From an archaeon CG10_big_fil_rev_8_21_14_0_10_43_11 (lineage in GTDB: Archaea > Nanobdellota > Nanobdellia > PEZQ01), in NCBI GenBank assembly GCA_002763265.1, contig PEZQ01000008.1:1-37779 (forward strand): a stretch of 37,779 bases of DNA. The letters run 5' to 3'. Made by a program: the position numbers and the translations under genes. Under the pieces are notes generated by a model. The model searched no databases. It was not told the origin of the DNA and was given only the letters and a program-made list of their open reading frames with translations. Below are positions 7,271-35,892 of this stretch, one piece after another (the stretch's first letter is position 1; the number at the start of each line of letters is the position of its first letter).

Positions 7271-7504
7271 TTAAGCAATATCTAAGTCCAGGTCATTTAA
7301 CAATTCTGAAACTTCCTGAATGTTTTTACTCACATCTCTAACAACGGTTTTTGCTTCTTGCTCGCTTATAACCACGACTGCACCTGTTGTTGCTGTTTGG
7401 TTCGTGCTTGTTTGATTGTCTGATTCCTTTGTCAGAGAGTCACCAATTTGCGTGCATCCAATGAACAGTGTTGCAAACATGAATGCTATAATATATCGTT
7501 TCAT
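7271..7504 (-). CDS. Small lipoprotein coupled to the giant Cys-rich protein
   Basis: A 77-aa protein with a lipoprotein signal: MKRY, a hydrophobic core, then the lipobox-like FIGC (Cys17). The mature part starts with a Ser/Thr/Asn-rich linker containing N-glycosylation sequons (NQTSTNQTATTG) and ends in a helical acidic segment (residues 47-77). The start codon overlaps the stop of the upstream giant protein gene by 4 nt (ATGA), so the two are translationally coupled and probably work together at the cell surface. No domain is recognised. Confidence 0.8.
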   Translation of the reverse strand: MKRYIIAFMFATLFIGCTQIGDSLTKESDNQTSTNQTATTGAVVVISEQEAKTVVRDVSKNIQEVSELLNDLDLDIA

Positions 7505-10500
7505 GCTAACACCGCCACTAATGGTCCTTCACAATAGGGAAGAATATCAACTTGCGGGTCTTCAATTCCTGAGGAGTAATGAGGGATGCTGCAGGTCATA
7601 TCCTGGTTGTTGTCCGTTACATACATTGAGCACATGCCGTTTTCTAAACCTCTAATTTCTGCTTCAACACCGTCTTCTGGCGTGAATGTTGCTTGCTTAC
7701 AGAGGCGAAACGCTGCGTCAAAACAATCCTCATCAAAACCACAGTCGGCTACGTTTCCTTGTGTTATATCCCGGACTTCTTCTGAGCTACTGAGCATAAT
7801 GTAGAGCACGTTTTTGAGTGTTGATTTTCGCAAGTGACGTATCTTGAGCTTAACATCTTCAATATCCTGCACGCTCAAGCTCTCAATAGTATCGCGAAGG
7901 AAGTTGAGAATATCTTCCACTTCATCTGCGGCAGTAAACAACATTTCAGATGCGCGCTCGAATCGCGCCCCATTTGTATCATTTCGTTCTTGATAGAACG
8001 CTGCGATTGCTTGTATCTTTTCTCCAAGCTCTACGAATCTTATTTTCAAATCTTCAAGTTTGAAAACCATGCCAAGCAGGATTGCTGAATCTGGCACTTC
8101 TTCAAGTTTTTCATGCGCCTCCAAACTAACCATCGCATCACCTTTTGCAACGCATTCTACAAAGGTAACGCATCCTTTAGCATCTTTTTCCACGATTAGC
8201 TCGCCTTTACATTGTGTGTACGCTTCTGCAGGAACACTCTTGCAGTATTGTTCCTTTGCACCACAGGCGAGTATTTCGCATCCATGCGTATTGTAGTCCC
8301 GAACCACCTGCAATCCTTGTGAATTACATTTTGTTTTTATTTCTTGCACAATGTTTGGACTCAACGAGTCAACACCCACACACTTATCAGTCTCTTTTCG
8401 CTCGCACACTACACGTTCACAACCATTCTTCTTCACGTATTTTGGCGAGCCTCCAAATTCTTTGCAGCGCAATACATCCTCATTATTTTGCTCAATAGTT
8501 TGGCATTCTGCTTTGTTCTCCCATAGACGTGCGGTTTTATTCTCATCTTCAAAGCTACATTTTAAGAATTCACACGTATCAGGCCCAATATGATATTCGG
8601 GAAGCCCGCCCTGCTCAATACATTTTTGCTCCCAGCTAGGGTCTCGTGTTGGACATATTCTCTGTTCTTTTTCACACACAATAGTGCTTATGCCCGCGTC
8701 CGCATCAAATAGTTCTTCACAGCCTTGGGGAACTTCTTGCACCAACTTGAATCCTGTCTTTGACGATGACGGGCAGGTGTATTGGGATTCTTGACACCAC
8801 GTACCACACCAATTCGAACCCGCGTTTTTGCAGTCACTTTCTGAAAAACAGTTCCAGGGTTGTGATGCCGTGCAAATCGGACATTCTCCTGCATTACACC
8901 AGCCAGCGTTCACACTGCCACACCAATCGCCGCCCGCGCTGGTACAGTCTGATTTCGTGTAACAGTTCCACACTTTTGACGAAGTGCAGGTTGGACAATT
9001 TTCTTGCTGACACCAACTGTAATCACCTGAACCTGTGCACCACTGTGCATCAACACCTTCACAAGACGTTTGTGAGAAGCAATTCCAGGGGTTATTGTCA
9101 CTGCATTCGGGACAATTTTCTTGCTGACACCAGCCATAGTCCCCTGAGCCTTCACACCATTGTGCATCAACACCTTCACAGTTTGATTGTGATGCGCAAT
9201 TCCAAGGGTTTGCTTGTGAGCATGAATAGTCAGGACAGGTGTATGGTGCTTTGTTACACCATCCCGATGTGGTTGCATTGGTTGATTCAGGATTATTACA
9301 CCACACGCCACTTACTGATTTACAGGTGGTCTCTGTCTGGCAATTCCATGCTTCATTTGAGGAGCATTTGAATGTTGGGCACGTGTCTTTTTGGCACCAT
9401 GCATTTCCACTTTTATCACTGCACCATTTAGCACCAGCAGATTCACAGTTTTCCTTATCTCCACACTTCCATAATGATGACGAAGTGCAGGTTGGACAGG
9501 CATCAGATTGACACCACGTACCACACCAATTCGAACCTGCGCTGGTACACGTGCTTTCTGTTTTACAATTCAAGCTTTCCGTTGCAGAACATGTGTAGGA
9601 TGGACAGGCATCAGATTGACACCAACTAGGACCACCGCCTGAGGATTTGCACCAGTTTTTTCCTTTGTCTTCACATGCAGATTGCGTGTTTATAGGGCAG
9701 TCGTCTGAACACCACCCCGTACTTGAATACACGTCTTCACACCAATCGCCGCCCGCGCTGGTACAGTCTGATTCTGAGTAACAGTTCCATAACCCTGTTG
9801 TGTTACATGTTGGACAATCATACTCTTGACACCAACCATAACTACCTGAGCTTGCACACCAATTTCCTTGAACGCCTTCGCACAGCGATTCAGTATTACA
9901 ATTCCATTTTTCAGTAGCAGTGCAGGTTGGACAGGGTTGGCTTGAACAATACGTGCCACACCAATTCGCGCCAACACCAGTACAATCTGATTCTAAATAA
10001 CAGTTCCACGCTTCGGATGCGCTACAGGAAGGACATTCATACGTCTGGCACCAGCCGTAATCACCTGAGCTTGCACACCAATTAGCCCCACTGGCACTGC
10101 ATGACTCTTTATCATTACAGTTCCACGCTGATGATGCATTACACTCGTATGAAGGACACGCATAACTCTGACACCAGGTGTTTCCATAGGTGTCAGCACA
10201 CCAATTGGCACTTACTTGCGAACATTCTGACTCAGTTTGACAATTCCATGCTTCATTTGTGTTACACGAACTCGTACCCGTTTGATTTGTCTGATTTGTG
10301 GTTGTAGTTTGGTTTGTAGTTGTTGTCTCGTTCGTGCTTGAACAGGAGTAGCCTGCATCATTGCAGTAATTATTACACCACACCCCACCAACACTCGTGC
10401 AATTCGTTTCACTATAACAATAGCTTGTTTGTGAAGCAGAACAGGTATATGTTTGGTTAGTCGTCGTGTTAGTTTGATTTGAGCTTGGGCATACATACCC

Positions 10501-11499
10501 TGAGGAATAACAGTAATTGCTGCACCACACGCCATTAATGCCCGCGCATGCGGATTCAGTGTAGCAATAGCCCGGATACGACGCAGAACAAGTCATGCTT
10601 GTTGTAGTATTTGTGCTACCACAATCAGTTGGGCATGAGCTAGATGTTTCATTACTATCGCAAAGACCATTGCCACAATAGGCTGAAGTGTTCACGCTCG
10701 GACAAGAATAACCAGCGCTGTAACAATAATTACTGCACCACACCCCACCAACACTCGTGCAATTCGTTTCACTATAACAATAGCCCGGATACGACGCAGA
10801 ACACGAAGTGGAAGTTTGATTCGTGCTTGAACAGGTGTAGTTTGATTCGTAGCAGTAATTACTACACCAAATGCCCCCTGCACCACTACATTCTGATTCC
10901 GTGTAGCAGTACCAGCGCTCATTCGCGTTACATGTGTATGTTGGGCATGCGGTATTTTGACACCAGCTTGAAGAACCAGACATACACCAGTTAGCGCCTA
11001 CTGTTTCGCATTCAGACTGTGACGCGCAGTTCCAATAATCAGTGGATGAACAGGTATTAGACGGGCACGCACCTGACTGACACGAACTATAGCCTGCTGA
11101 ATCAGTGCACCAATTTGCCGCACCTATCCCTTCACACTCTTCTTGAGTCTGGCAATTCCAATATCCAGTTGATGAACACATAGTAAATTCCGGACACGAA
11201 TAATAATCACCTGACCACGTAGCATCGCTGCAACAATAACCTGAAGAGTAAACGGTGCCACCGCATTTACAGGAAGCACTTATGGTTATGTTTGTGCCAC
11301 ATTCTGGTGCGCACGCCTCAAGGCTCGCACAGTCTGTGTCATCACAATCAGTTAAGCCATCAGCGTCATCATCAACGCCATTTGAACATTCAGTTTCTGT
11401 TGTTGGAGTGGTTTGATTTTCCTGTGCGTATGAGGCTTGGGTGGGGAACGTAAATAAAAGGGAGAGAACAAGAAGTGCAAACAGTAATTCCCTACCCAT
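7501..11499 (-). CDS. Giant secreted Cys/Trp-repeat surface protein
   Basis: A 1332-aa exported protein. Residues 1-25 form a signal peptide (cleavage near SYA-Q). Residues 38-57 contain CSNGVDDDADGLTDC, a calcium-type Asp-rich loop common in archaeal and bacterial envelope proteins. From about residue 108 to 913 there are about 19 imperfect units of 35-60 aa with the pattern C-x4-5-W-N/Y-C-x2-E-S-x-C-x4-G-x-W-C...W-C-x4-C-P. One unit carries an extra YCGNGLCDSNE-type cysteine module. Asn/Thr-rich linkers with many N-x-T sequons separate units 3-7. Residues 914-1120 hold about four copies of a different module (C-x3-GG-x-P-x5-G-C-E-x3-C). The C-terminus is helical without a membrane anchor. 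TATAAATA about 25 nt upstream supports ATG 11499. Function unknown; likely a disulfide-rich fibre, adhesin or envelope component. Confidence 0.85.
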   Translation of the reverse strand: MGRELLFALLVLSLLFTFPTQASYAQENQTTPTTETECSNGVDDDADGLTDCDDTDCASLEACAPECGTNITISASCKCGGTVYSSGYCCSDATWSGDYYSCPEFTMCSSTGYWNCQTQEECEGIGAANWCTDSAGYSSCQSGACPSNTCSSTDYWNCASQSECETVGANWCMSGSSSWCQNTACPTYTCNANERWYCYTESECSGAGGIWCSNYCYESNYTCSSTNQTSTSCSASYPGYCYSETNCTSVGGVWCSNYCYSAGYSCPSVNTSAYCGNGLCDSNETSSSCPTDCGSTNTTTSMTCSASYPGYCYTESACAGINGVWCSNYCYSSGYVCPSSNQTNTTTNQTYTCSASQTSYCYSETNCTSVGGVWCNNYCNDAGYSCSSTNETTTTNQTTTTNQTNQTGTSSCNTNEAWNCQTESECSQVSANWCADTYGNTWCQSYACPSYECNASSAWNCNDKESCSASGANWCASSGDYGWCQTYECPSCSASEAWNCYLESDCTGVGANWCGTYCSSQPCPTCTATEKWNCNTESLCEGVQGNWCASSGSYGWCQEYDCPTCNTTGLWNCYSESDCTSAGGDWCEDVYSSTGWCSDDCPINTQSACEDKGKNWCKSSGGGPSWCQSDACPSYTCSATESLNCKTESTCTSAGSNWCGTWCQSDACPTCTSSSLWKCGDKENCESAGAKWCSDKSGNAWCQKDTCPTFKCSSNEAWNCQTETTCKSVSGVWCNNPESTNATTSGWCNKAPYTCPDYSCSQANPWNCASQSNCEGVDAQWCEGSGDYGWCQQENCPECSDNNPWNCFSQTSCEGVDAQWCTGSGDYSWCQQENCPTCTSSKVWNCYTKSDCTSAGGDWCGSVNAGWCNAGECPICTASQPWNCFSESDCKNAGSNWCGTWCQESQYTCPSSSKTGFKLVQEVPQGCEELFDADAGISTIVCEKEQRICPTRDPSWEQKCIEQGGLPEYHIGPDTCEFLKCSFEDENKTARLWENKAECQTIEQNNEDVLRCKEFGGSPKYVKKNGCERVVCERKETDKCVGVDSLSPNIVQEIKTKCNSQGLQVVRDYNTHGCEILACGAKEQYCKSVPAEAYTQCKGELIVEKDAKGCVTFVECVAKGDAMVSLEAHEKLEEVPDSAILLGMVFKLEDLKIRFVELGEKIQAIAAFYQERNDTNGARFERASEMLFTAADEVEDILNFLRDTIESLSVQDIEDVKLKIRHLRKSTLKNVLYIMLSSSEEVRDITQGNVADCGFDEDCFDAAFRLCKQATFTPEDGVEAEIRGLENGMCSMYVTDNNQDMTCSIPHYSSGIEDPQVDILPYCEGPLVAVLA

Positions 11500-13617: not shown

Positions 13618-14094
13618 ATGTTATACACATTGGTACGTGTTCTTGACCGTTTTGTGCGCTTCCCAAGCGCGCACGCGCATTGCGATATTCCCTGTGGAAT
13701 CTACGACCCTCACCAGGCACAAGTAGATGCACACACGGTTATTCGCATGATAGACCTTATTAAAGAAGCGAAATCCAGCAACGTGCACAGCCTTGCTCGC
13801 TACACAAGCGTAAAAGAGCAGCATGCAGAATCGTGCAAGCATCAGATTCGAATTCTTTGGGGAGACTACTTTAAAGATGAGCATGTTAAACAATTCCCAA
13901 ACCTGCCTGAACTGGTTTGGCGCGCGCTCAAGCAAGCATCAAAAACCCGTCAAGGAACAGACCGAAAAGATGGTGAAGCTCTTCTTGCAACCGTGCAAGA
14001 GATTAGCGAAATCTTTTGGAAAACAAAAGGAAAAAACCCGAAGCGCGTGAAAGCACCCTACCCTAGTGGCGGAGAGCTCGTACTCCACGACTAA
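13618..14094 (+). CDS. sodN: Nickel superoxide dismutase precursor (SodN)
   Basis: NiSOD converts superoxide to oxygen and hydrogen peroxide. The 158-aa precursor has a 20-residue leader ending SAHA, followed by HCDIPCGIYDP, the nickel hook. After cleavage, His1, Cys2 and Cys6 with the new N-terminus bind nickel; Pro5 and Tyr9 are also conserved. The rest (HQAQVDAHTVIRMIDLI, ESCKHQIRILWGDYFKDEH, a C-terminal amphipathic helix) matches the four-helix NiSOD fold. The leader must be removed by SodX, encoded 12 nt downstream. No twin-arginine or Sec signal is seen, so the enzyme is probably cytoplasmic. Leaderless start from TTATATAA. Confidence 0.95.
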   Translation: MLYTLVRVLDRFVRFPSAHAHCDIPCGIYDPHQAQVDAHTVIRMIDLIKEAKSSNVHSLARYTSVKEQHAESCKHQIRILWGDYFKDEHVKQFPNLPELVWRALKQASKTRQGTDRKDGEALLATVQEISEIFWKTKGKNPKRVKAPYPSGGELVLHD

Positions 14095-14106
14095 GACTGG
14101 TTTTGC

Positions 14107-14403
14107 ATGCTACCGATTAGTATTGTGCGCATTATTGGTCCAAGTATGGAGCCAACACTCCATCATGGCGATTTTGTAGTAGTTCACACGTTTTTTAAAA
14201 CGCTCAAAAAAAGGGATATTGTCTTATGCAAGCATCCTATCACGGGGGTGCAGGTCATAAAGCGTATTGTGCAGGTAAAAAACAGCGTCTACGAGCTTGC
14301 GGGTGACAACCTGCAGCAAAGCACAAACTTTCGTGGAATCGCGCGCCAAGCGATTTTAGCAAAACACGCGTTTTCCATAAAAGCACCGCACATGCACCCG
14401 TGA
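14107..14403 (+). CDS. sodX: NiSOD maturation protease (SodX), S24/S26-type
   Basis: A 98-aa signal-peptidase-like protease. It has the Ser box GPSMEPTLHHGDFVV (catalytic Ser13) and the Lys box QVIKRIVQV (Lys52), forming the Ser-Lys dyad, and a final AGDN motif (AGDNLQQSTN). No membrane anchor is present, as is usual for the nickel-type SOD maturation proteases encoded beside sodN. Its job would be to cut the SodN leader and expose His1 of the nickel hook. It follows sodN by 12 nt in the same operon. Confidence 0.93.
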   Translation: MLPISIVRIIGPSMEPTLHHGDFVVVHTFFKTLKKRDIVLCKHPITGVQVIKRIVQVKNSVYELAGDNLQQSTNFRGIARQAILAKHAFSIKAPHMHP

Positions 14404-16538: not shown

Positions 16539-16686
16539 TCATTATGCAGAGGATTAACTGTTATAAAAAACCACGCACAAAACAGGTAAAAATATGAAGC
16601 GGTTTTTGCGCGCTTACCCCAAAAGGAGGCACACTCATTTCTCACCCGCAGGGCTTTATGGTTGAAGGAAAAGAAGGACATCTCTG

Positions 16687-17437
16687 ATCTACAATAGTAG
16701 AAATTAAAGCATGCTTCTAGACCTCATCCGCGTTAATAGTCAAACCCTCCACATCTACAATAGTAGAAATTAAAGCATGCTTCTAGACTTTCGCTGAGAA
16801 GGTAGTGAGGGAGTGGATCTACAATAGTAGAAATTAAAGCATGCTTCTAGACAAAAGATTGAGGAAGTTGAGGAGAAAGTATCTACAATAGTAGAAATTA
16901 AAGCATGCTTCTAGACTTAAGACGTGGGGCGTTAGTGATTGTAGATCTACAATAGTAGAAATTAAAGCATGCTTCTAGACCGGAATATTTTGAGCGTTGG
17001 GTATTGCATCTACAATAGTAGAAATTAAAGCATGCTTCTAGACTTCAAAAAAGTATCATCCGTGACGTTCTCATCTACAATAGTAGAAATTAAAGCATGC
17101 TTCTAGACACGTTCAGTGACGTCTGGAACGAAGTACGATCTACAATAGTAGAAATTAAAGCATGCTTCTAGACGCGGATAAACCAAAGCCTAACCGCGGT
17201 ATATCTACAATAGTAGAAATTAAAGCATGCTTCTAGACCGATTGCAACACGTGCGGGCGCTCATTCATGCATCTACAATAGTAGAAATTAAAGCATGCTT
17301 CTAGACTACACCAAATGTGCAATGATTACACATGAATCTACAATAGTAGAAATTAAAGCATGCTTCTAGACCTCGCAGTCCAGACGGGCGCGAGAATTTT
17401 AATCTACAATAGTAGAAATTAAAGCATGCTTCTAGAC
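16687..17437 (-). CRISPR. Type V-A CRISPR array, 12 repeats and 11 spacers
   Basis: Twelve identical 36-nt repeats start at 16687, 16753, 16817, 16881, 16945, 17008, 17073, 17138, 17203, 17271, 17336 and 17402. Spacers from left to right are 30, 28, 28, 28, 27, 29, 29, 29, 32, 29 and 30 nt, all different. On the minus strand the repeat begins GTCTA and ends in the Cas12a crRNA handle, with stem TCTAC/GTAGA around loop TATT and final T. Transcription is therefore minus-strand, leading from cas2. The leader-proximal (newest) spacer is 17372-17401 and the oldest is 16723-16752. The repeat also contains the 10-nt palindrome AAGCATGCTT. No tracrRNA is needed for this type, and none was seen. The terminal repeat is not degenerate. 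Confidence 0.99.
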
Positions 17438-17644
17438 AGTGGTGATTTGAATCTTTATAGCATTTGCTTAATCTCCTCTAGCATACATCATTTTAGACGT
17501 TCACCTCTAAAACTCATTTCCAATATAACTGGTTATTTCTATTCTTCTTAAGTCTTTCTTTAACGATGTTAGAGCGGCTAAAGGTAGCGAATTCGTAGAT
17601 ATCAGCGATATTCTCGTATAATATTAGGACTTAGGTTTGCAGAT
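17438..17644 (-). promoter_or_regulatory. CRISPR leader
   Basis: This is the 207-nt AT-rich non-coding region between the cas2 stop and the first repeat, where new spacers would enter. On the minus strand it ends with GCTATAAAGATT (TATA-like, 17453-17460) just before the first repeat, which could start the pre-crRNA. Short palindromes (CGAATTCG near 17590, GATATC near 17598) are possible IHF-independent integration or regulator sites. No ORF of note. Confidence 0.75.
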
Positions 17645-17917
17645 TTAATACATAATCAGGTCAGTTTCTTCATTTTTAGCATAACCAAACCTTAAAATTT
17701 GGTTTTCTGCTGTTATTTTGAATATCAAGACGCTATCTCCCTGGCTAAATCGTTTCTCAAACCGATTTTTAATTTCTTCTTGCACTATATCCAAAATCCT
17801 TTTACTGTTCCTTATTTCATATACTGAGTATTGCAGTCTTCTTCCATAACTTAAAATAAACTTGGAAAACTCAGTTCTTAGATGGTCTTCTTGAATATCA
17901 TATGTTAAAATCATCAT
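17645..17917 (-). CDS. cas2: CRISPR-associated Cas2
   Basis: A 90-aa protein with the Cas2 ferredoxin-like fold signature: ILTYDIQEDHLRTEF (catalytic-type Asp7), then GRRLQYSVYEIRNS, and SVLIFKI. It dimerises and bridges two Cas1 dimers in the spacer-integration complex. Its start overlaps the cas1 stop (ATGA), so translation is coupled. The gene is closest to the array, and the order cas12a-cas4-cas1-cas2-array is that of type V-A loci. Confidence 0.95.
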   Translation of the reverse strand: MMILTYDIQEDHLRTEFSKFILSYGRRLQYSVYEIRNSKRILDIVQEEIKNRFEKRFSQGDSVLIFKITAENQILRFGYAKNEETDLIMY

Positions 17918-18888
17918 GTTTCTGCCTCTATGTTAAACACAGGAAAATTGTCCATTCCTTTTCCTTTTATGAATGATCTGTAATAGGCTTGAATATATAG
18001 AAATATTTTTTCCTTCTGTTGAAGAATCTCTTTTAAAAACAATTGAGAATACTTTTTATTGAAATTTCTCTTTACATAAAACTGTCCGTTCTTGAAATAA
18101 AAGTCGTCTTTATTTATTTGTTTCAGATTAAAGCTTTTTCTTATACGGCGGTCAATGATACACCTAAAAGGCTCTACCAAATCACAGACTAAAGATTTTC
18201 TTTGAAAAAAGAGCTTATGGTAAAATCCGCAATATGTGTCAAAGCCGTAAAGTTCCAGATTTGCTTCTATGAAATTAAACAGATAATAATAGCCTATATC
18301 CAACAGCAAATTAAAAATGTCATCTTTACATCTTGGCTTTCGACCATTAAAGTTTAGATTCTTGAAATATGTTTCAAAAAACAGTTTTGAAGCTGTTCCC
18401 TCAATCCCTAGCAATTCCTGGCTGTTTTGAGCATGGCCAATCTGTTTGAAAAGCCCCTTTATTTTTGATATATTGTTCTTTTCCTTAACGGTTTTGTATC
18501 GCAATGAGTTCATTAAACTGATTTGGTTTTTGACTTTGTTGCTGATTATGTGCTTGGCAATTTCTAGATCATTACTATTGGAATATTGCTTTTTTCTCAA
18601 TAAAAAATTTCCCTTATTATCGGGGATTATAGAAAAATAAGGTTTAAGATTATGCTTGAGAAACACTATGGGAACTGCATATTTCTTTGCATTCTTTATC
18701 AGAACAGAAGTTATCGAGAATTCTCCTAAAATAAAAACCATAAAAATTTTGCTGCAAGGATGTTGAAGAACAATTTTATTGTTTTCATCAGTAAGAATAA
18801 GATTTGAATTTTTAAGCCTCAGTTTTTTAGAGTTATCACTCTCAATGAAAAGCATTTGCTTTGCCATAAAATCGGGTCTGCTTAGCAT
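17914..18888 (-). CDS. cas1: CRISPR-associated Cas1 integrase
   Basis: This is the metal-dependent integrase of spacer acquisition. From ATG 18888 the product is 324 aa. Catalytic residues are visible: Glu163 in LLGIEGTASK, His224 in CGFYHKLFF, and the acidic pair in CDLVEPFRCIID (Asp236/Glu239). I prefer ATG 18888 to 18915 because GGAG sits 9 nt upstream, the N-terminus LSRPDFMAKQMLFIE fits type V-A Cas1 proteins, and overlap with cas4 is avoided (4-nt gap). Operon with cas4 and cas2. Confidence 0.95.
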   Translation of the reverse strand: MLSRPDFMAKQMLFIESDNSKKLRLKNSNLILTDENNKIVLQHPCSKIFMVFILGEFSITSVLIKNAKKYAVPIVFLKHNLKPYFSIIPDNKGNFLLRKKQYSNSNDLEIAKHIISNKVKNQISLMNSLRYKTVKEKNNISKIKGLFKQIGHAQNSQELLGIEGTASKLFFETYFKNLNFNGRKPRCKDDIFNLLLDIGYYYLFNFIEANLELYGFDTYCGFYHKLFFQRKSLVCDLVEPFRCIIDRRIRKSFNLKQINKDDFYFKNGQFYVKRNFNKKYSQLFLKEILQQKEKIFLYIQAYYRSFIKGKGMDNFPVFNIEAET

Positions 18889-18892
18889 GTTT

Positions 18893-19450
18893 TTAATCTC
18901 CTTTATAGTAATCACATAATTCTTTGTAGATGCACATCCCGCATTTGTTGGGGTTTTGGGTAAAATTTTTGTCTTCCAACGAAAAAAGCTTCATTTTTGC
19001 TATAACTTCTTTTAATCTATTCTTTTCATTGTTTCCAGGCAATGCAACATCATGAATTTTGTTATCTGAAAGCGAATGAAACCGTATCTTTTTAACTGCA
19101 TAACCCATCTCTACCAAACAGAAATATTGCGCATACAGTTGCAGGTAATATCCTTCATAAAGTTTTGTTATCTTGTTTTTTCTTTCTGTAAGAATCCTTT
19201 TTTCAACATCAAAAAGATCGATTTTGCCACTTACGCCCAGCTCTTCACTGTATACGTCAATACCTTCAAGAATCACTTTTTTTGTTGAATATTTTTGCGT
19301 GTCAATAGTCTTGTGGGCATTCTTTCCTTTTGTTTGATACGTGGTATGGTAGAGTGTCTCATCAAAAGAAGAATACAAATTGTGAAAATAGATGCTTCTT
19401 GGACAAAATATGAAATCATTTAGGTTTGATATTCTGATGTTTTGCTCCAT
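18893..19450 (-). CDS. cas4: CRISPR-associated Cas4 nuclease
   Basis: A 185-aa RecB-like nuclease that trims prespacers and checks the PAM before integration. The four cluster cysteines are present: C16 (FCPRS), C170, C173 and C179 (CGMCIYKELC), for a 4Fe-4S centre. The RecB nuclease motifs are H46, D78 (GKIDLFD), E89-x-K91 (TERK), and QLYAQYF. GGAGGT before ATG 19450 is a strong Shine-Dalgarno site. It lies 52 nt behind cas12a. Confidence 0.95.
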   Translation of the reverse strand: MEQNIRISNLNDFIFCPRSIYFHNLYSSFDETLYHTTYQTKGKNAHKTIDTQKYSTKKVILEGIDVYSEELGVSGKIDLFDVEKRILTERKNKITKLYEGYYLQLYAQYFCLVEMGYAVKKIRFHSLSDNKIHDVALPGNNEKNRLKEVIAKMKLFSLEDKNFTQNPNKCGMCIYKELCDYYKGD

Positions 19451-19502
19451 TTAATTACCTCCAGAAAACCGCCATTCACTCCGCTTACTTTGTCTAAATT
19501 AG

Positions 19503-22500
19503 TCATTTAATAGGCATCTCGCTAGATTCATTAATGTTAACATCACTCTGTTTCGTATTCTCTTTCTGATTTAATTTTCTTGAAGCGAAGATTGGCAATT
19601 GTTCATTCCATTTCTCCCTATCATATAACCACAAGTCCCACTCTTTATCAGAAATAAAAAGATCCAAATCAGTTGTTTCTTTACTATCATCCCTCTTGGA
19701 TTTTGTTTTTTGCTTCCCATCATTTATCCACTGTTTGATATGCTCATACATAACTATTCCTTTACGGGCAATATTATATGCTCCGTTTGCATCAGCATCT
19801 ATGGGTAAATGTGGTATTTCTTGGCTTTGATATTTACGTGAATCAAAATGTTCTCCTTGTTCATCCCTTATAGGAGAAAGCAAAAAGTTGTCGTCTTGAT
19901 TTTTATTTGTATCTGCACCATAGAATTTATCTTCTTGTTTTTTAGTGATATCTCCTGAATTTCTGATTTGTTGAATCAGATCAATTACAAAACGAAGTGT
20001 TTCCCAAGCAGTGTGCTCATTGACTTTCTTAAGTTCTACTCTTTCTTCAAATTGCTGTCTCAAAGACTTTGAGTTATCAAAATTCTCAAATAATTTGTCT
20101 AATAATTCTTTTACATCAAAAGGTTCGATAATATATTCGTTTTTGTCTTTCCCCCTTTTTGCCCTGTAACGTTCCAACGCTTTACCGCCTTTACCAGACC
20201 ACAATTTCCATTCTTTGCCATTCACATCAGTATATTGAAAGAAATAATCACCACTATAAACGCCAATCTCTGTAAAAGCACTGAGTATTTGTTTTTTAAT
20301 ATCGGCTTCGCTTCCCTTTTTCAGATAAATAGTTTTTCTCCAACCAGTTACAGGATCAGTTACAGAAGTGTAATTGGCACGAGTATACAACATAATGCCA
20401 ACTTGTTTTCTATTTTCAATATCTCTGTAATTAGTCACTGGTGGCACAAGTTGCAGGGCTTTTGACACAGAACCTATTTTGCCCATATCCGTTACATTTT
20501 TATCTACAAGGTAATTCAGCTTTTTAGCCAACGCCAATTCAAACTTTTGATATACTTGTTGCTCGAATTTTTGACGCCTACGTTTAAATCCTGGATTCAA
20601 ATCTTCCAATACAATGAAAGTGGATTTATAATTACCGTCTTTATCTCTCATCTTTTTGATAATCTCATGGATTACCAACGAAATATAGCCGTCTTTCAAG
20701 TTAGATATATTGCCTTTTTGTTGCCAGTTCTCCTGCTTTTTCTTACGTCTATCTGCAGCATTATTTATCTCCTGCAAATAATCTTTATTGTTAATAACAT
20801 CAAAATGGTCCTGTTCAATGATTTCTCCATTTGCATTAACCAACGAATAGTAAATCAAATGCTTCTCACCACGATCAATGCCCAGAAATTGAATATCTTT
20901 TTGAATATCTTTAGTTTGAGTGAAGTTGTCGTTGACAGTTTCTGTAACATTCCTGTTGCCGTATGCCTTAAAATTCAATGTAATTGGGCAATGCAAGAAG
21001 AATTTATTAGTTGTAAATCTTTTATCTTTAACAATGTCATGTTTTAATTTTTTTATAGTAACTCTATTTTCATCAATCTCGTTGTTTTTATCTAAATAAG
21101 CCTTTGCCTCATCACTTAATGCTTCAATTGATTTATTCTTATTGGCAAACAAACGTAATTCATCATGAATTTTGTACGGAATTGTTTTGTTTGTTTCTTT
21201 TTCTCGTCTGTTGAGTACATAATCTTTAGTTGTGTGTGCGGGACTTTTTTTGATTCCTTTGGCAAGATTTCTGAAAAATATTTCAGATTCTCCATTAAGT
21301 TTATAGATCACATTTCTCTTGTTTTCTTCACTAAACAACATTTTCCAATAATAAGTGTGTATGTTATCTTTACCCCTAACAGTTTTTCTTTGAGAGAAAT
21401 CCTTGTTGTAAATTTGAAACAGAAATACTTTCCCTTCATCAATAAATTCCAGTAATTTTTTCCAAGAAGTGTTTTCCTCCTTTATTTGATAACACGATAC
21501 CTCTGTGTCATGATAGAACTCTGCAATGTCTTTGTATTCAGATGTTTTTTTCCAATCAAAATTAAAGTGTTTGTATGAATCGTGTTTTAAAAATCCTTTT
21601 TTAAAATAATCAATTAATTTTCCCAATGATATTTTATATTCTTCTTCGTTCTTTTTTCGGTGTTCTGTTCTGAATTTACCCGTATCATAAATGTCAAGTA
21701 TATCATTAATTGGTAAATTGTATTTTTCCACCGCAGGTGCAAAACTATCTCCCTTTGAACGGATGAATAAACGTGGTGTATTCTTATTATCTGGTTTTTG
21801 AAAATCAAGGATTATCCTTGTTGCGGTTTCACCATTTGGCTGCTTTAGTGTTTTAATATCTTCTTTTGATAAATTGTAATTAATCGCTAAATAATAAAGC
21901 CCATCTTTTTTATATAGAAGTCCTGCCTTTTTGGCATAATCTGGTGGCCATCCACCAAGAAAAGAACTGCTTTCAAAGTTCAGTTTCAGCTTGTTTTTCT
22001 TTGCATCTTCCTGTGGTTTCTTGCTTAGGTAATTTCTCACCAAATCGTACCAATCAAACCAGTTGGAATCATCCGCACGTAGCAAAGCAGAAAGTATATT
22101 GGTCAGTTCAGGGTTAATGCTGTTTCCTTTTACCTTGCTCTCCTTTACTTCAAAATATTTCACAATCCACAGCAACCACTTTGATCTATCCAGCCATTCT
22201 TTTATCTGTAGAATATTGTTTTCATTTTTATAGTCGATTATTTTTAAAGCATCTTCTGATTTCTCGCAAAATTCCTTTGCCAACTTTTGCATATCTGCGC
22301 AAATAAGCTTGATAAGATTTTGGCTTGGTGTAAGCTTCTCATCAATTAAATCTTTATATTCTTCTAAAATATGTTCCCTGAAAAAGTCTTTACTCCAACC
22401 TTGAACAGCATCATGATTCAAAATTTCAAACAACCCCGACAGCTCAACGGCATCGTTTATTTTCAGTTGTTCTTCTCGCTCTTTGTTGTAGGTTGCAACT

Positions 22501-23807
22501 GATTTTAATGTTTCTTTTAACCCTTTGTCTTTTCCTTGTAGATCAGTTTGAATGCGATCTTTTATATCATGCCAGTTTGCTAAATACTTATTAGAAATCT
22601 TATCAACTGCTGCTTTCGACCAATAGGTGCCCTCCCAATCATTGTTTTCTCTTAACCATTCTATGAATGTGTAAATGGTGATTAGGGTATCATCGATTTG
22701 TTCGGCAAAATATTTTTCACCAGCTTTACTTATTTTGCTCAATTTTTCTTTGAGTTCCGTATCATCTTTAATTTGCTCAAACAAACTTTGTTTACCACAT
22801 CCAATCTGTTTAAATAAGGTTTTGAACTGTGACAATTTTTTAAAATCCTTTTCGTCTTTTCTTTCCTGATTATACAAATTTATCAGCAGATTGTAATGTC
22901 CCATGACTCTGTTGTATTCGTCAATTCCTTCTTGAGAAAGATATTTTGGAAACTTATCAAGATTAAACCAGTCTTCGCTTACGGGTTGTGCCTCAATCAG
23001 TTGATTGGTTTTTGCATCTTTTATTTGTATAGTCCCGCGATTATCTTTCAAGTATTGATAAGCTTTTAGATATTCTTCTTTTCGGGAAACAATTGTTTCT
23101 GTGCGGGTATCATTTTTTTTCTTTTTCTGAACCTTTCCGATTAAAAACTGAATGACGTTATCACAAAATTTAGGCAAGTTTTCATGAACTATTCTCGTAG
23201 CTACTGCCGTGCTTGCTTCTTTTTTATATTCATAATAATTAGACCTATTGGTATTATACCCTGAAAAATATCCAAAGAAACCCTCAAATTCTTCGATATG
23301 TGCCCATAATTCTACATTATCTTTATATTGCTCTGACAAATACCCTATGATTTCTGCTTTTGCTGTTGGAACCCCGTTTTTTATTTCAAATAAAGGCTTC
23401 TCTTCTTCTTCTTTCTTCTTAGTTATTTTGGTTATCTTGTATGTCTTAACAGTTTTTTCAAAAGTCTTGCCTATTTGTTCCCGTAATTTCTTTTCAAAAC
23501 CATCCAACTTTTTTTCTTTGCCTTTTTTGTATTCTTCAAAATATTCTGAAAAATCAATCTGTTTCGCTTCGTCTGAAGTCAAACTCTTATTAATTATATC
23601 TTCATGTATCTTGTCTAAGACAGGTTTTAGAGCATCATAAGCTGCTTTAATCAGTCTATCCTTCTCAATAATTTTCGTGAGTAATTCAGTTGCATCTTCA
23701 GGTGATAATACCACTCCATCCTTCCCAATTGGTCTTAACTCAAACCTCAAAGTTTTCGATAAGCTGTACAAATTTGTAAATTTATCCCATTTGCCTTTTT
23801 TGTTCAT
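19503..23807 (-). CDS. cas12a: Cas12a (Cpf1) effector nuclease, type V-A, long form
   Basis: Cas12a processes its own pre-crRNA and cuts T-rich-PAM DNA with one RuvC site. The product is 1434 aa, longer than FnCas12a (1300) and AsCas12a (1307). It starts with the classic WED-I/REC1 entry FTNLYSLSKTLRFELRPIGK. The RuvC triad is complete: D978 (GIDRGEKH), E1068 (VLEDLNPGFK) and D1339 (DADANGAYN). The Nuc-domain arginine R1282 (QQIRNSG) and SPIRDEQGEHFDSR are present. LYLFQIYNKDF-type and HTYYWKMLFSEEN motifs mark the WED/PI region. Two additions stand out: about 45 extra residues between FFRNLA and KDKRFT, the crRNA-processing region, and a long charged C-terminal tail. The N-terminal REC part is also Lys-rich. 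It overlaps the leader ORF by 4 nt and heads the operon. AT-rich relative to flanks. Confidence 0.97.
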   Translation of the reverse strand: MNKKGKWDKFTNLYSLSKTLRFELRPIGKDGVVLSPEDATELLTKIIEKDRLIKAAYDALKPVLDKIHEDIINKSLTSDEAKQIDFSEYFEEYKKGKEKKLDGFEKKLREQIGKTFEKTVKTYKITKITKKKEEEEKPLFEIKNGVPTAKAEIIGYLSEQYKDNVELWAHIEEFEGFFGYFSGYNTNRSNYYEYKKEASTAVATRIVHENLPKFCDNVIQFLIGKVQKKKKNDTRTETIVSRKEEYLKAYQYLKDNRGTIQIKDAKTNQLIEAQPVSEDWFNLDKFPKYLSQEGIDEYNRVMGHYNLLINLYNQERKDEKDFKKLSQFKTLFKQIGCGKQSLFEQIKDDTELKEKLSKISKAGEKYFAEQIDDTLITIYTFIEWLRENNDWEGTYWSKAAVDKISNKYLANWHDIKDRIQTDLQGKDKGLKETLKSVATYNKEREEQLKINDAVELSGLFEILNHDAVQGWSKDFFREHILEEYKDLIDEKLTPSQNLIKLICADMQKLAKEFCEKSEDALKIIDYKNENNILQIKEWLDRSKWLLWIVKYFEVKESKVKGNSINPELTNILSALLRADDSNWFDWYDLVRNYLSKKPQEDAKKNKLKLNFESSSFLGGWPPDYAKKAGLLYKKDGLYYLAINYNLSKEDIKTLKQPNGETATRIILDFQKPDNKNTPRLFIRSKGDSFAPAVEKYNLPINDILDIYDTGKFRTEHRKKNEEEYKISLGKLIDYFKKGFLKHDSYKHFNFDWKKTSEYKDIAEFYHDTEVSCYQIKEENTSWKKLLEFIDEGKVFLFQIYNKDFSQRKTVRGKDNIHTYYWKMLFSEENKRNVIYKLNGESEIFFRNLAKGIKKSPAHTTKDYVLNRREKETNKTIPYKIHDELRLFANKNKSIEALSDEAKAYLDKNNEIDENRVTIKKLKHDIVKDKRFTTNKFFLHCPITLNFKAYGNRNVTETVNDNFTQTKDIQKDIQFLGIDRGEKHLIYYSLVNANGEIIEQDHFDVINNKDYLQEINNAADRRKKKQENWQQKGNISNLKDGYISLVIHEIIKKMRDKDGNYKSTFIVLEDLNPGFKRRRQKFEQQVYQKFELALAKKLNYLVDKNVTDMGKIGSVSKALQLVPPVTNYRDIENRKQVGIMLYTRANYTSVTDPVTGWRKTIYLKKGSEADIKKQILSAFTEIGVYSGDYFFQYTDVNGKEWKLWSGKGGKALERYRAKRGKDKNEYIIEPFDVKELLDKLFENFDNSKSLRQQFEERVELKKVNEHTAWETLRFVIDLIQQIRNSGDITKKQEDKFYGADTNKNQDDNFLLSPIRDEQGEHFDSRKYQSQEIPHLPIDADANGAYNIARKGIVMYEHIKQWINDGKQKTKSKRDDSKETTDLDLFISDKEWDLWLYDREKWNEQLPIFASRKLNQKENTKQSDVNINESSEMPIK

Positions 23808-34432: not shown

Positions 34433-35821
34433 TCATACAAGCCAGCGTCTGCCGTCTGCGCGCATCAATGAAAATAGCTCAGACGGACCTTTACTTCCCG
34501 GATAGTAGTATACAAGGCGCGGCGAGTCAAGAGCACGCATCACCTGCTCATACACCGCCCAGCACGCTTCAGCTTCCTCGCCGGTTACAAAACCTTTATT
34601 GTCAAAGCGAATAACGCGATAGAGTAATCGGTCATAGGGATGCGCGTGTTTTTTTCGCAGGTCTTTGTTTTCCAAAAAACTCATAAATACCGGTTCAAGC
34701 ATGTCATCTTTAAAGGAGTGGTACACATTAAAACGCACGCTCACGCCCTCATCTCCAGAGATAGTGATAAGAATCGAGTTTGGGAGCACTCCTTTTTTGA
34801 AAATTTTAGAATCACTTTTTTTAAGACGAATATAGATGCGGGTCACTTTCTCGTCTAAACCCTTTCCGCTCTTAAAATAAAATGGCACGCCACGCCAGCG
34901 CTCGTTATCAACAAAGAGCTTAAGCCCCATGCACGTTTCAATTGAGGAATCAGTTCCCAAATCCTTACAAAAACCATGATATTGACCTTTGACAAGAAAA
35001 CACGTTTCATCAAGCGTGATGTTTTTTAAAAAATCAACCTTGCTTTTTGAGAGGTCCTCTCGTTTAAGCGAGTCAGGTTCCTCAATACCAACAAGGCTTG
35101 CAAGCTGCAATAAATGGGTTTGAAACATATCTTTTAGCACGCCACTATCCCCAAAATAGGCGTTTCTGCCCTCAAGACCGATTTTTTCGTTTGCAATGAT
35201 TTGCACGTGGTCTATGAAATCCTTATTCCAAATCTTTTCAAAAAAATGGTTTGAAAAGCGCACGGCAAGAATGTTTCGAACCATCTTATAATTGAGGTAG
35301 TGGTCAATCCGGTACACTTTTTCCTCACTACCTTGCTCTAAAATAAGCGTGTTAAGGGTTTTGCATGAGGCTGCATCCATGCCGAATGGTTTTTCAAACG
35401 CAATGCGGGACTCATCATCAAAAGCAAACAGCCCTGAGTGCATGAGTTGGGTGAGCGCGTTTTCAAAAAGCATCGGATGCAAGCTTAAGTAGAAAATAAT
35501 GTTTCCTGCATAGTCTGCTTTTAATTGTTTCAAATAGCTTTCAACATGGTCTAAACCGCCAGGCTCGTGCATGTCAACACGTTGGTAGAAGAATTTTTTG
35601 AGAAACTGATTATTGCATTTAAAATTAGTTGATTCAAACACGATTCTTCGAAAATGAGCGTCAGTTAATGTGCTTCGAGCAATGCCAACAACCTTGAAGT
35701 CGCGTGAAATCTTTTTTGAACGAACCAGACGAAAGAGTGCTGAATACAGTTTTCTTTTTGCCAAATCTCCTGTTGCACCAAAAAGAACAAGAACAAATGG
35801 GTCGCGTCTAATTCTACCCAT
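34433..35821 (-). CDS. zwf: Glucose-6-phosphate 1-dehydrogenase
   Basis: A classical bacterial/eukaryote-type G6PDH of about 462 aa, catalysing glucose-6-phosphate to 6-phosphogluconolactone with NADP. It has the coenzyme motif FGATGDLAKRKL (residues 14-25), the signature YRIDHYLNYKMVRN with the catalytic His, and EKIGLEGRNAYFGDSGVLKDMFQTH. ATG 35821 is chosen because the TTTTATAG box at about 35843-35852 lies 25 nt upstream. Most archaea lack this enzyme type. It lies between the EF-2 and EF-1alpha genes. It could supply NADPH for redox repair (MsrA etc.). Confidence 0.96.
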   Translation of the reverse strand: MGRIRRDPFVLVLFGATGDLAKRKLYSALFRLVRSKKISRDFKVVGIARSTLTDAHFRRIVFESTNFKCNNQFLKKFFYQRVDMHEPGGLDHVESYLKQLKADYAGNIIFYLSLHPMLFENALTQLMHSGLFAFDDESRIAFEKPFGMDAASCKTLNTLILEQGSEEKVYRIDHYLNYKMVRNILAVRFSNHFFEKIWNKDFIDHVQIIANEKIGLEGRNAYFGDSGVLKDMFQTHLLQLASLVGIEEPDSLKREDLSKSKVDFLKNITLDETCFLVKGQYHGFCKDLGTDSSIETCMGLKLFVDNERWRGVPFYFKSGKGLDEKVTRIYIRLKKSDSKIFKKGVLPNSILITISGDEGVSVRFNVYHSFKDDMLEPVFMSFLENKDLRKKHAHPYDRLLYRVIRFDNKGFVTGEEAEACWAVYEQVMRALDSPRLVYYYPGSKGPSELFSLMRADGRRWLV

Positions 35822-35892
35822 ACTATTGAACAAGACACGCGAACTATAAAAGACTAGTCATGGCAAAAAAAAAATGGGGGCGCAAGACGGGG

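Follow-up and report, generated by a model that had tools for sequence, protein, structure and literature searches.

Two adjacent genes of archaeon CG10_big_fil_rev_8_21_14_0_10_43_11 raise the question whether a tiny, probably host-dependent archaeon meets superoxide with a nickel enzyme and a protease dedicated to its maturation. The nickel superoxide dismutase (NiSOD) of Streptomyces, whose leader is removed before nickel binding, has such a sodX partner. The stretch of DNA analysed here, referred to as the window, comprises positions 1–37,779 of contig PEZQ01000008.1, + strand, and an initial annotation had described the two genes as a complete sodN-sodX pair, composed of a 20-aa leader, the motif HCDIPCGIY and an adjacent Ser-Lys protease. 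Following up this description, we consider it very likely that the genes form a two-gene unit of a NiSOD and its maturation protease, which probably supplies the only superoxide scavenger of the cell and was probably acquired laterally. Direct support comes from the gene pair, the hook, the catalytic dyad, the predicted fold and the lack of matches to other known scavengers.

Identity of SodN and its partner protease

The first gene, sodN (13618–14094, + strand), encodes a NiSOD precursor of 158 aa that matches the Pfam family Sod_Ni (PF09055; E 1.5e-44, 152 bits, cut-off 25) as well as the sodN model TIGR02753 (154.5 bits, cut-off 90). Aligned to the crystallised NiSOD of Streptomyces (PDB; E 5.8e-27), it matches from exactly His21, the predicted His1 of the mature protein, which delimits a 20-aa N-terminal leader MLYTLVRVLDRFVRFPSAHA (13618–13677, + strand), whose hydrophobicity (best 19-residue Kyte-Doolittle value 0.46) is too low for a Sec signal. 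The leader is followed by the nickel hook HCDIPCGIY (13678–13704, + strand; precursor residues 21–29, mature residues 1–9). His1, Cys2, Asp3, Pro5, Cys6 and Tyr9 of the hook are invariant in 97 of 97 aligned NiSODs, an alignment that was seeded from the window protein and whose residue counts are therefore not family-wide frequencies.

An AF2 model computed with 30 related sequences reached a mean pLDDT of 92.8 and displays the four-helix NiSOD fold, for which a Foldseek search of the PDB returned NiSOD chains as all of its top 16 matches, the remainder being insignificant. The enzymes of Streptomyces coelicolor and S. seoulensis (PDB 1q0d, 1t6u) share this fold (TM 0.87–0.94 by target length) and the hook HCDxPCGxY at approximately 40 % sequence identity. 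Model confidence drops in the hook, where residues 21–24 fall below a pLDDT of 50; for a loop that is organised by a metal but was modelled with none, such a drop might be anticipated.

After a gap of 12 bp, sodX follows on the same strand (14107–14403, +) and encodes a 98-aa peptidase of the S26 type with Pfam S26/S24 matches. Judged by sequence, the family matches of both open reading frames lie far beyond chance. The best NCBIfam model for the small protein is that of SodX (TIGR02754), to which it scores 48.3 bits and thus below the cut-off of 63.25, while general signal peptidase models match nearly as well. It could accordingly be a relative of general signal peptidases that lies beside sodN by chance, SodN being processed otherwise. 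We regard this as highly improbable: in 17 of 18 loci of the window's phylum sodX lies downstream of sodN on the same strand, separated by at most 60 bp in 14 of them, the protein lacks a transmembrane segment (best 19-residue hydropathy 0.84), and some relatives in the same position (L019, L020, L022, L029) pass the SodX cut-off. As its own score stays under that cut-off, we base the assignment as SodX, the putative maturation protease, on this linkage and on the dyad of Ser13 and Lys52, which is identical in 62 of 62 homologues beside sodN in the fetched loci. Both reading frames lie exactly where the initial annotation had placed them, and its description of the pair is borne out by the family matches and the dyad.

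Origin of the locus and relatives of SodN

An objection to an archaeal NiSOD, named in the initial annotation as a refuting condition, is that bacterial DNA, be it the whole contig or just the gene pair, has contaminated an archaeal bin. This reading can point to Chloroflexota and CPR bacteria among the SodN relatives and to the G+C content of the pair, 47 % against 41 % for the window; the HerA gene of the same window, however, also reaches 46 %. The contig of 82,427 bases, moreover, carries the archaeal markers RNA polymerase A'/A'', TFIIB (TFB), pelota and EF-1alpha, and the assembly (1,006,051 bases, 99.59 % complete) has an estimated contamination of only 0.71 %. The sister SodN (tree support 98/80) is encoded in another genome of the family, where a sodX directly follows it and overlaps the sodN end. 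In view of the marker genes and the sister pair contamination is largely refuted and so unlikely as to be nearly negligible, and the archaeal host assumed at the outset stands.

The closest named relatives of SodN, at 50–60 % identity, belong to Aenigmatarchaeota, Micrarchaeota, Woesearchaeota, CPR bacteria, Dehalococcoidia and Thermoplasmata. The DPANN NiSODs (Aenigmatarchaeota, Micrarchaeota, Woesearchaeota and other DPANN archaea; L018–L021, L024–L025 and others), likewise roughly 50–60 % identical, share the hook and the C-terminal tail with the window protein, and most have a downstream sodX as well. In the SodN tree, which had been proposed as a check, archaeal and bacterial phyla are interleaved and the window's own class harbours separate SodN groups, a pattern that suggests repeated horizontal transfer. 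The pair was probably acquired laterally from a pool of genes common to DPANN archaea, CPR bacteria, Chloroflexota, Thermoplasmatota and Asgard archaea. Rooting or dating of such transfers was set aside and their direction is not readable, since the tree has no root, leaves many deep forks open and places the lone Streptomyces sequence on a long branch of unreliable position. Viral carriage was also considered, and no copy of sodN was found in viral contigs or phages.

A second, divergent SodN group of the window's class (L010, L011, L013–L017) was grouped with SAR202-like Chloroflexota. Its hooks continue as IYET, IYEA or VYEP, the C-terminal tail is missing and most members have Phe or Trp at position 47.

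The initial annotation had further presented NiSOD as a rarity among archaea. The pair does lie in an archaeon, but the rarity is weakened by earlier reports and by its presence in 17 of 371 sampled genomes of the phylum. While a 2009 paper stated that archaea had yielded no SodN (PMC2667541), it had by 2023 been reported from Nanoarchaeota, Thermoplasmatota, Woesearchaeota, Aenigmarchaeota, Heimdallarchaeota and Thaumarchaeota (PMC10783094). The present pair thus belongs to an already recognised kind of system, which is real and patchily distributed among DPANN archaea and other microbes.

Superoxide defence and nickel supply

Family searches of the genome for Fe/Mn-SOD, desulfoferrodoxin/superoxide reductase (SOR) and Cu/Zn-SOD, the check for other SODs that had been called for, gave no match. 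Among the known families of superoxide scavengers, NiSOD is therefore the only one that was found, and it is probably the cell's sole defence of this kind. At least one strong AhpC-TSA (peroxiredoxin-type) protein is encoded in the genome and could remove the H2O2 made by NiSOD; rubrerythrin was considered as a peroxide sink, and the family search found none in the genome.

Among the 371 genomes sampled across the phylum, NiSOD occurs in 17, Fe/Mn-SOD in 194 and SOR in 82, and none of the 17 NiSOD genomes contains Fe/Mn-SOD or SOR (Fisher p, with relatedness ignored, 2e-6 against Fe/Mn-SOD and 7e-11 against either of the two). Within genus g9, NiSOD is found in some genomes (G008, G054, G195, G345) and Fe/Mn-SOD in others, e.g. 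G087, G120 and G151, which indicates replacement at short range. The three enzymes hence largely stand in for one another within the phylum, sometimes inside one genus. In Marine Group II Thermoplasmatota, too, an archaeal NiSOD replaces Fe/Mn-SOD, and closely related lineages have switched between these enzymes (PMC10783094); their NiSODs, which are absent from the present tree, are said to group with Cyanobacteria (PMC10783094).

The nickel supply that the initial annotation took to be implied did not find support, as a search of the genome for the importers NicO and CbiM found neither, a result that counts against the proposed reading. A DsbD-like locus at approximately 52.3–53.8 kb of the contig was considered as a UreH-type nickel carrier and rejected, as it adjoins thioredoxin-like/redoxin genes and matches DsbD_TM. 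Hydrogenase was likewise dismissed as a nickel user, no NiFe hydrogenase being found in the genome. The locus thus provides a well-assembled case of a tiny archaeon in which no known superoxide scavenger but NiSOD was found, and neither a NicO nor a CbiM importer.

We propose that the cell synthesises SodN in its cytoplasm as an inactive precursor, from which the small, soluble Ser-Lys protease SodX would cut the leader after the SAHA motif and expose His1. The freed HCDIPCGIY hook could then wrap Ni(II)/Ni(III), and the protein would assemble, probably into a hexamer. The enzyme would convert superoxide to O2 and H2O2, the latter to be removed by the peroxiredoxin-type proteins of the same genome. 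The initial annotation also took NiSOD to imply exposure of the lineage to oxygen and, together with MsrA, to suggest life at oxic-anoxic interfaces, both of which we regard as conjectural. Further redox-related genes of the window encode MsrA (1269–1730) and, following it, a short DsbB-like membrane protein (1799–2140).

Differences from the Streptomyces enzyme

In Streptomyces NiSOD, Glu17 and Arg47 form part of a hydrogen-bond network that keeps His1 in place (PMC5722923). The window protein carries Asp17 and His47 instead, and most of its relatives combine Ala, Gly or Ser at position 17 with His47; the DPANN NiSODs mostly have Ala17, in contrast to Asp17 of the window protein. His47 is present in 83 of the 97 sequences of the seeded alignment, whereas Glu17 occurs in the Streptomyces reference only. 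The pair is also kept in the actinobacterial SodN of Nonomuraea, while the alphaproteobacterial SodN of Novosphingobium was read by eye as Ala17/Glu47. We regard the Glu17-Arg47 pair as a Streptomyces feature rather than a family-defining one; nearly all sampled relatives lack it and still qualify as SodN by hook and model.

Since the support of His1 is replaced, the protein might retain its hook and yet work with altered kinetics or serve a different purpose, for instance the storage or binding of nickel. The Streptomyces network and its replacement in the window protein and most relatives speak for this reading, but neither the hook ligands nor Tyr9 vary, and the gene never stands beside Fe/Mn-SOD or SOR in the phylum sampled, which points to SOD function. 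We therefore judge a changed role or kinetics to be very unlikely and retain the reading of SodN as a superoxide dismutase.

The second difference is a C-terminal tail GKNPKRVKAPYPSGGELVLHD (14029–14091, + strand), through which the window protein exceeds the Streptomyces enzyme by a hairpin of approximately 21 residues. The tail (VKAPYP..GELV) is conserved with at least 15 residues in 78 of the 97 rows and is predicted by AF2 with high confidence to form a beta hairpin of strands 141–145 and 153–157, whereas the solved NiSOD chains end near residue 117 and have no such tail. Novosphingobium SodN has a similar one, so that the tail is not unique to the DPANN/CPR/Chloroflexota lineage. It is conceivable, albeit rather doubtful, that the NiSODs of this lineage constitute a structurally distinct form, defined by a small residue or Asp at position 17, His47 and the added hairpin, in which the holding of His1 or the tuning of Ni(III) may differ. 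No published description of the second-sphere change or the tail was found in the literature covered, which lacks most subscription journals. Through the second-sphere change, natural variants become available for probing the weight of the His1 network in NiSOD catalysis.

Other genes in the window

Besides the sodN-sodX pair, the window contains a type V-A CRISPR system (16684–23807) with a Cas12a-like open reading frame of 1434 aa (RuvC_1, REC1, Cpf1_PI), Cas4, Cas1 and an array of 12 copies of the repeat ATCTACAATAGTAGAAATTAAAGCATGCTTCTAGAC. The cas12a gene has a G+C content of 33 %, compared to 41 % for the window. Glucose-6-phosphate dehydrogenase of bacterial type is unusual in archaea; a gene for this enzyme, with both Pfam domains present, is located at 34433–35833. 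Finally, a cysteine-rich, secreted-looking protein of 1332 aa with many repeats of the WNC/NWC type is encoded at 7501–11499.
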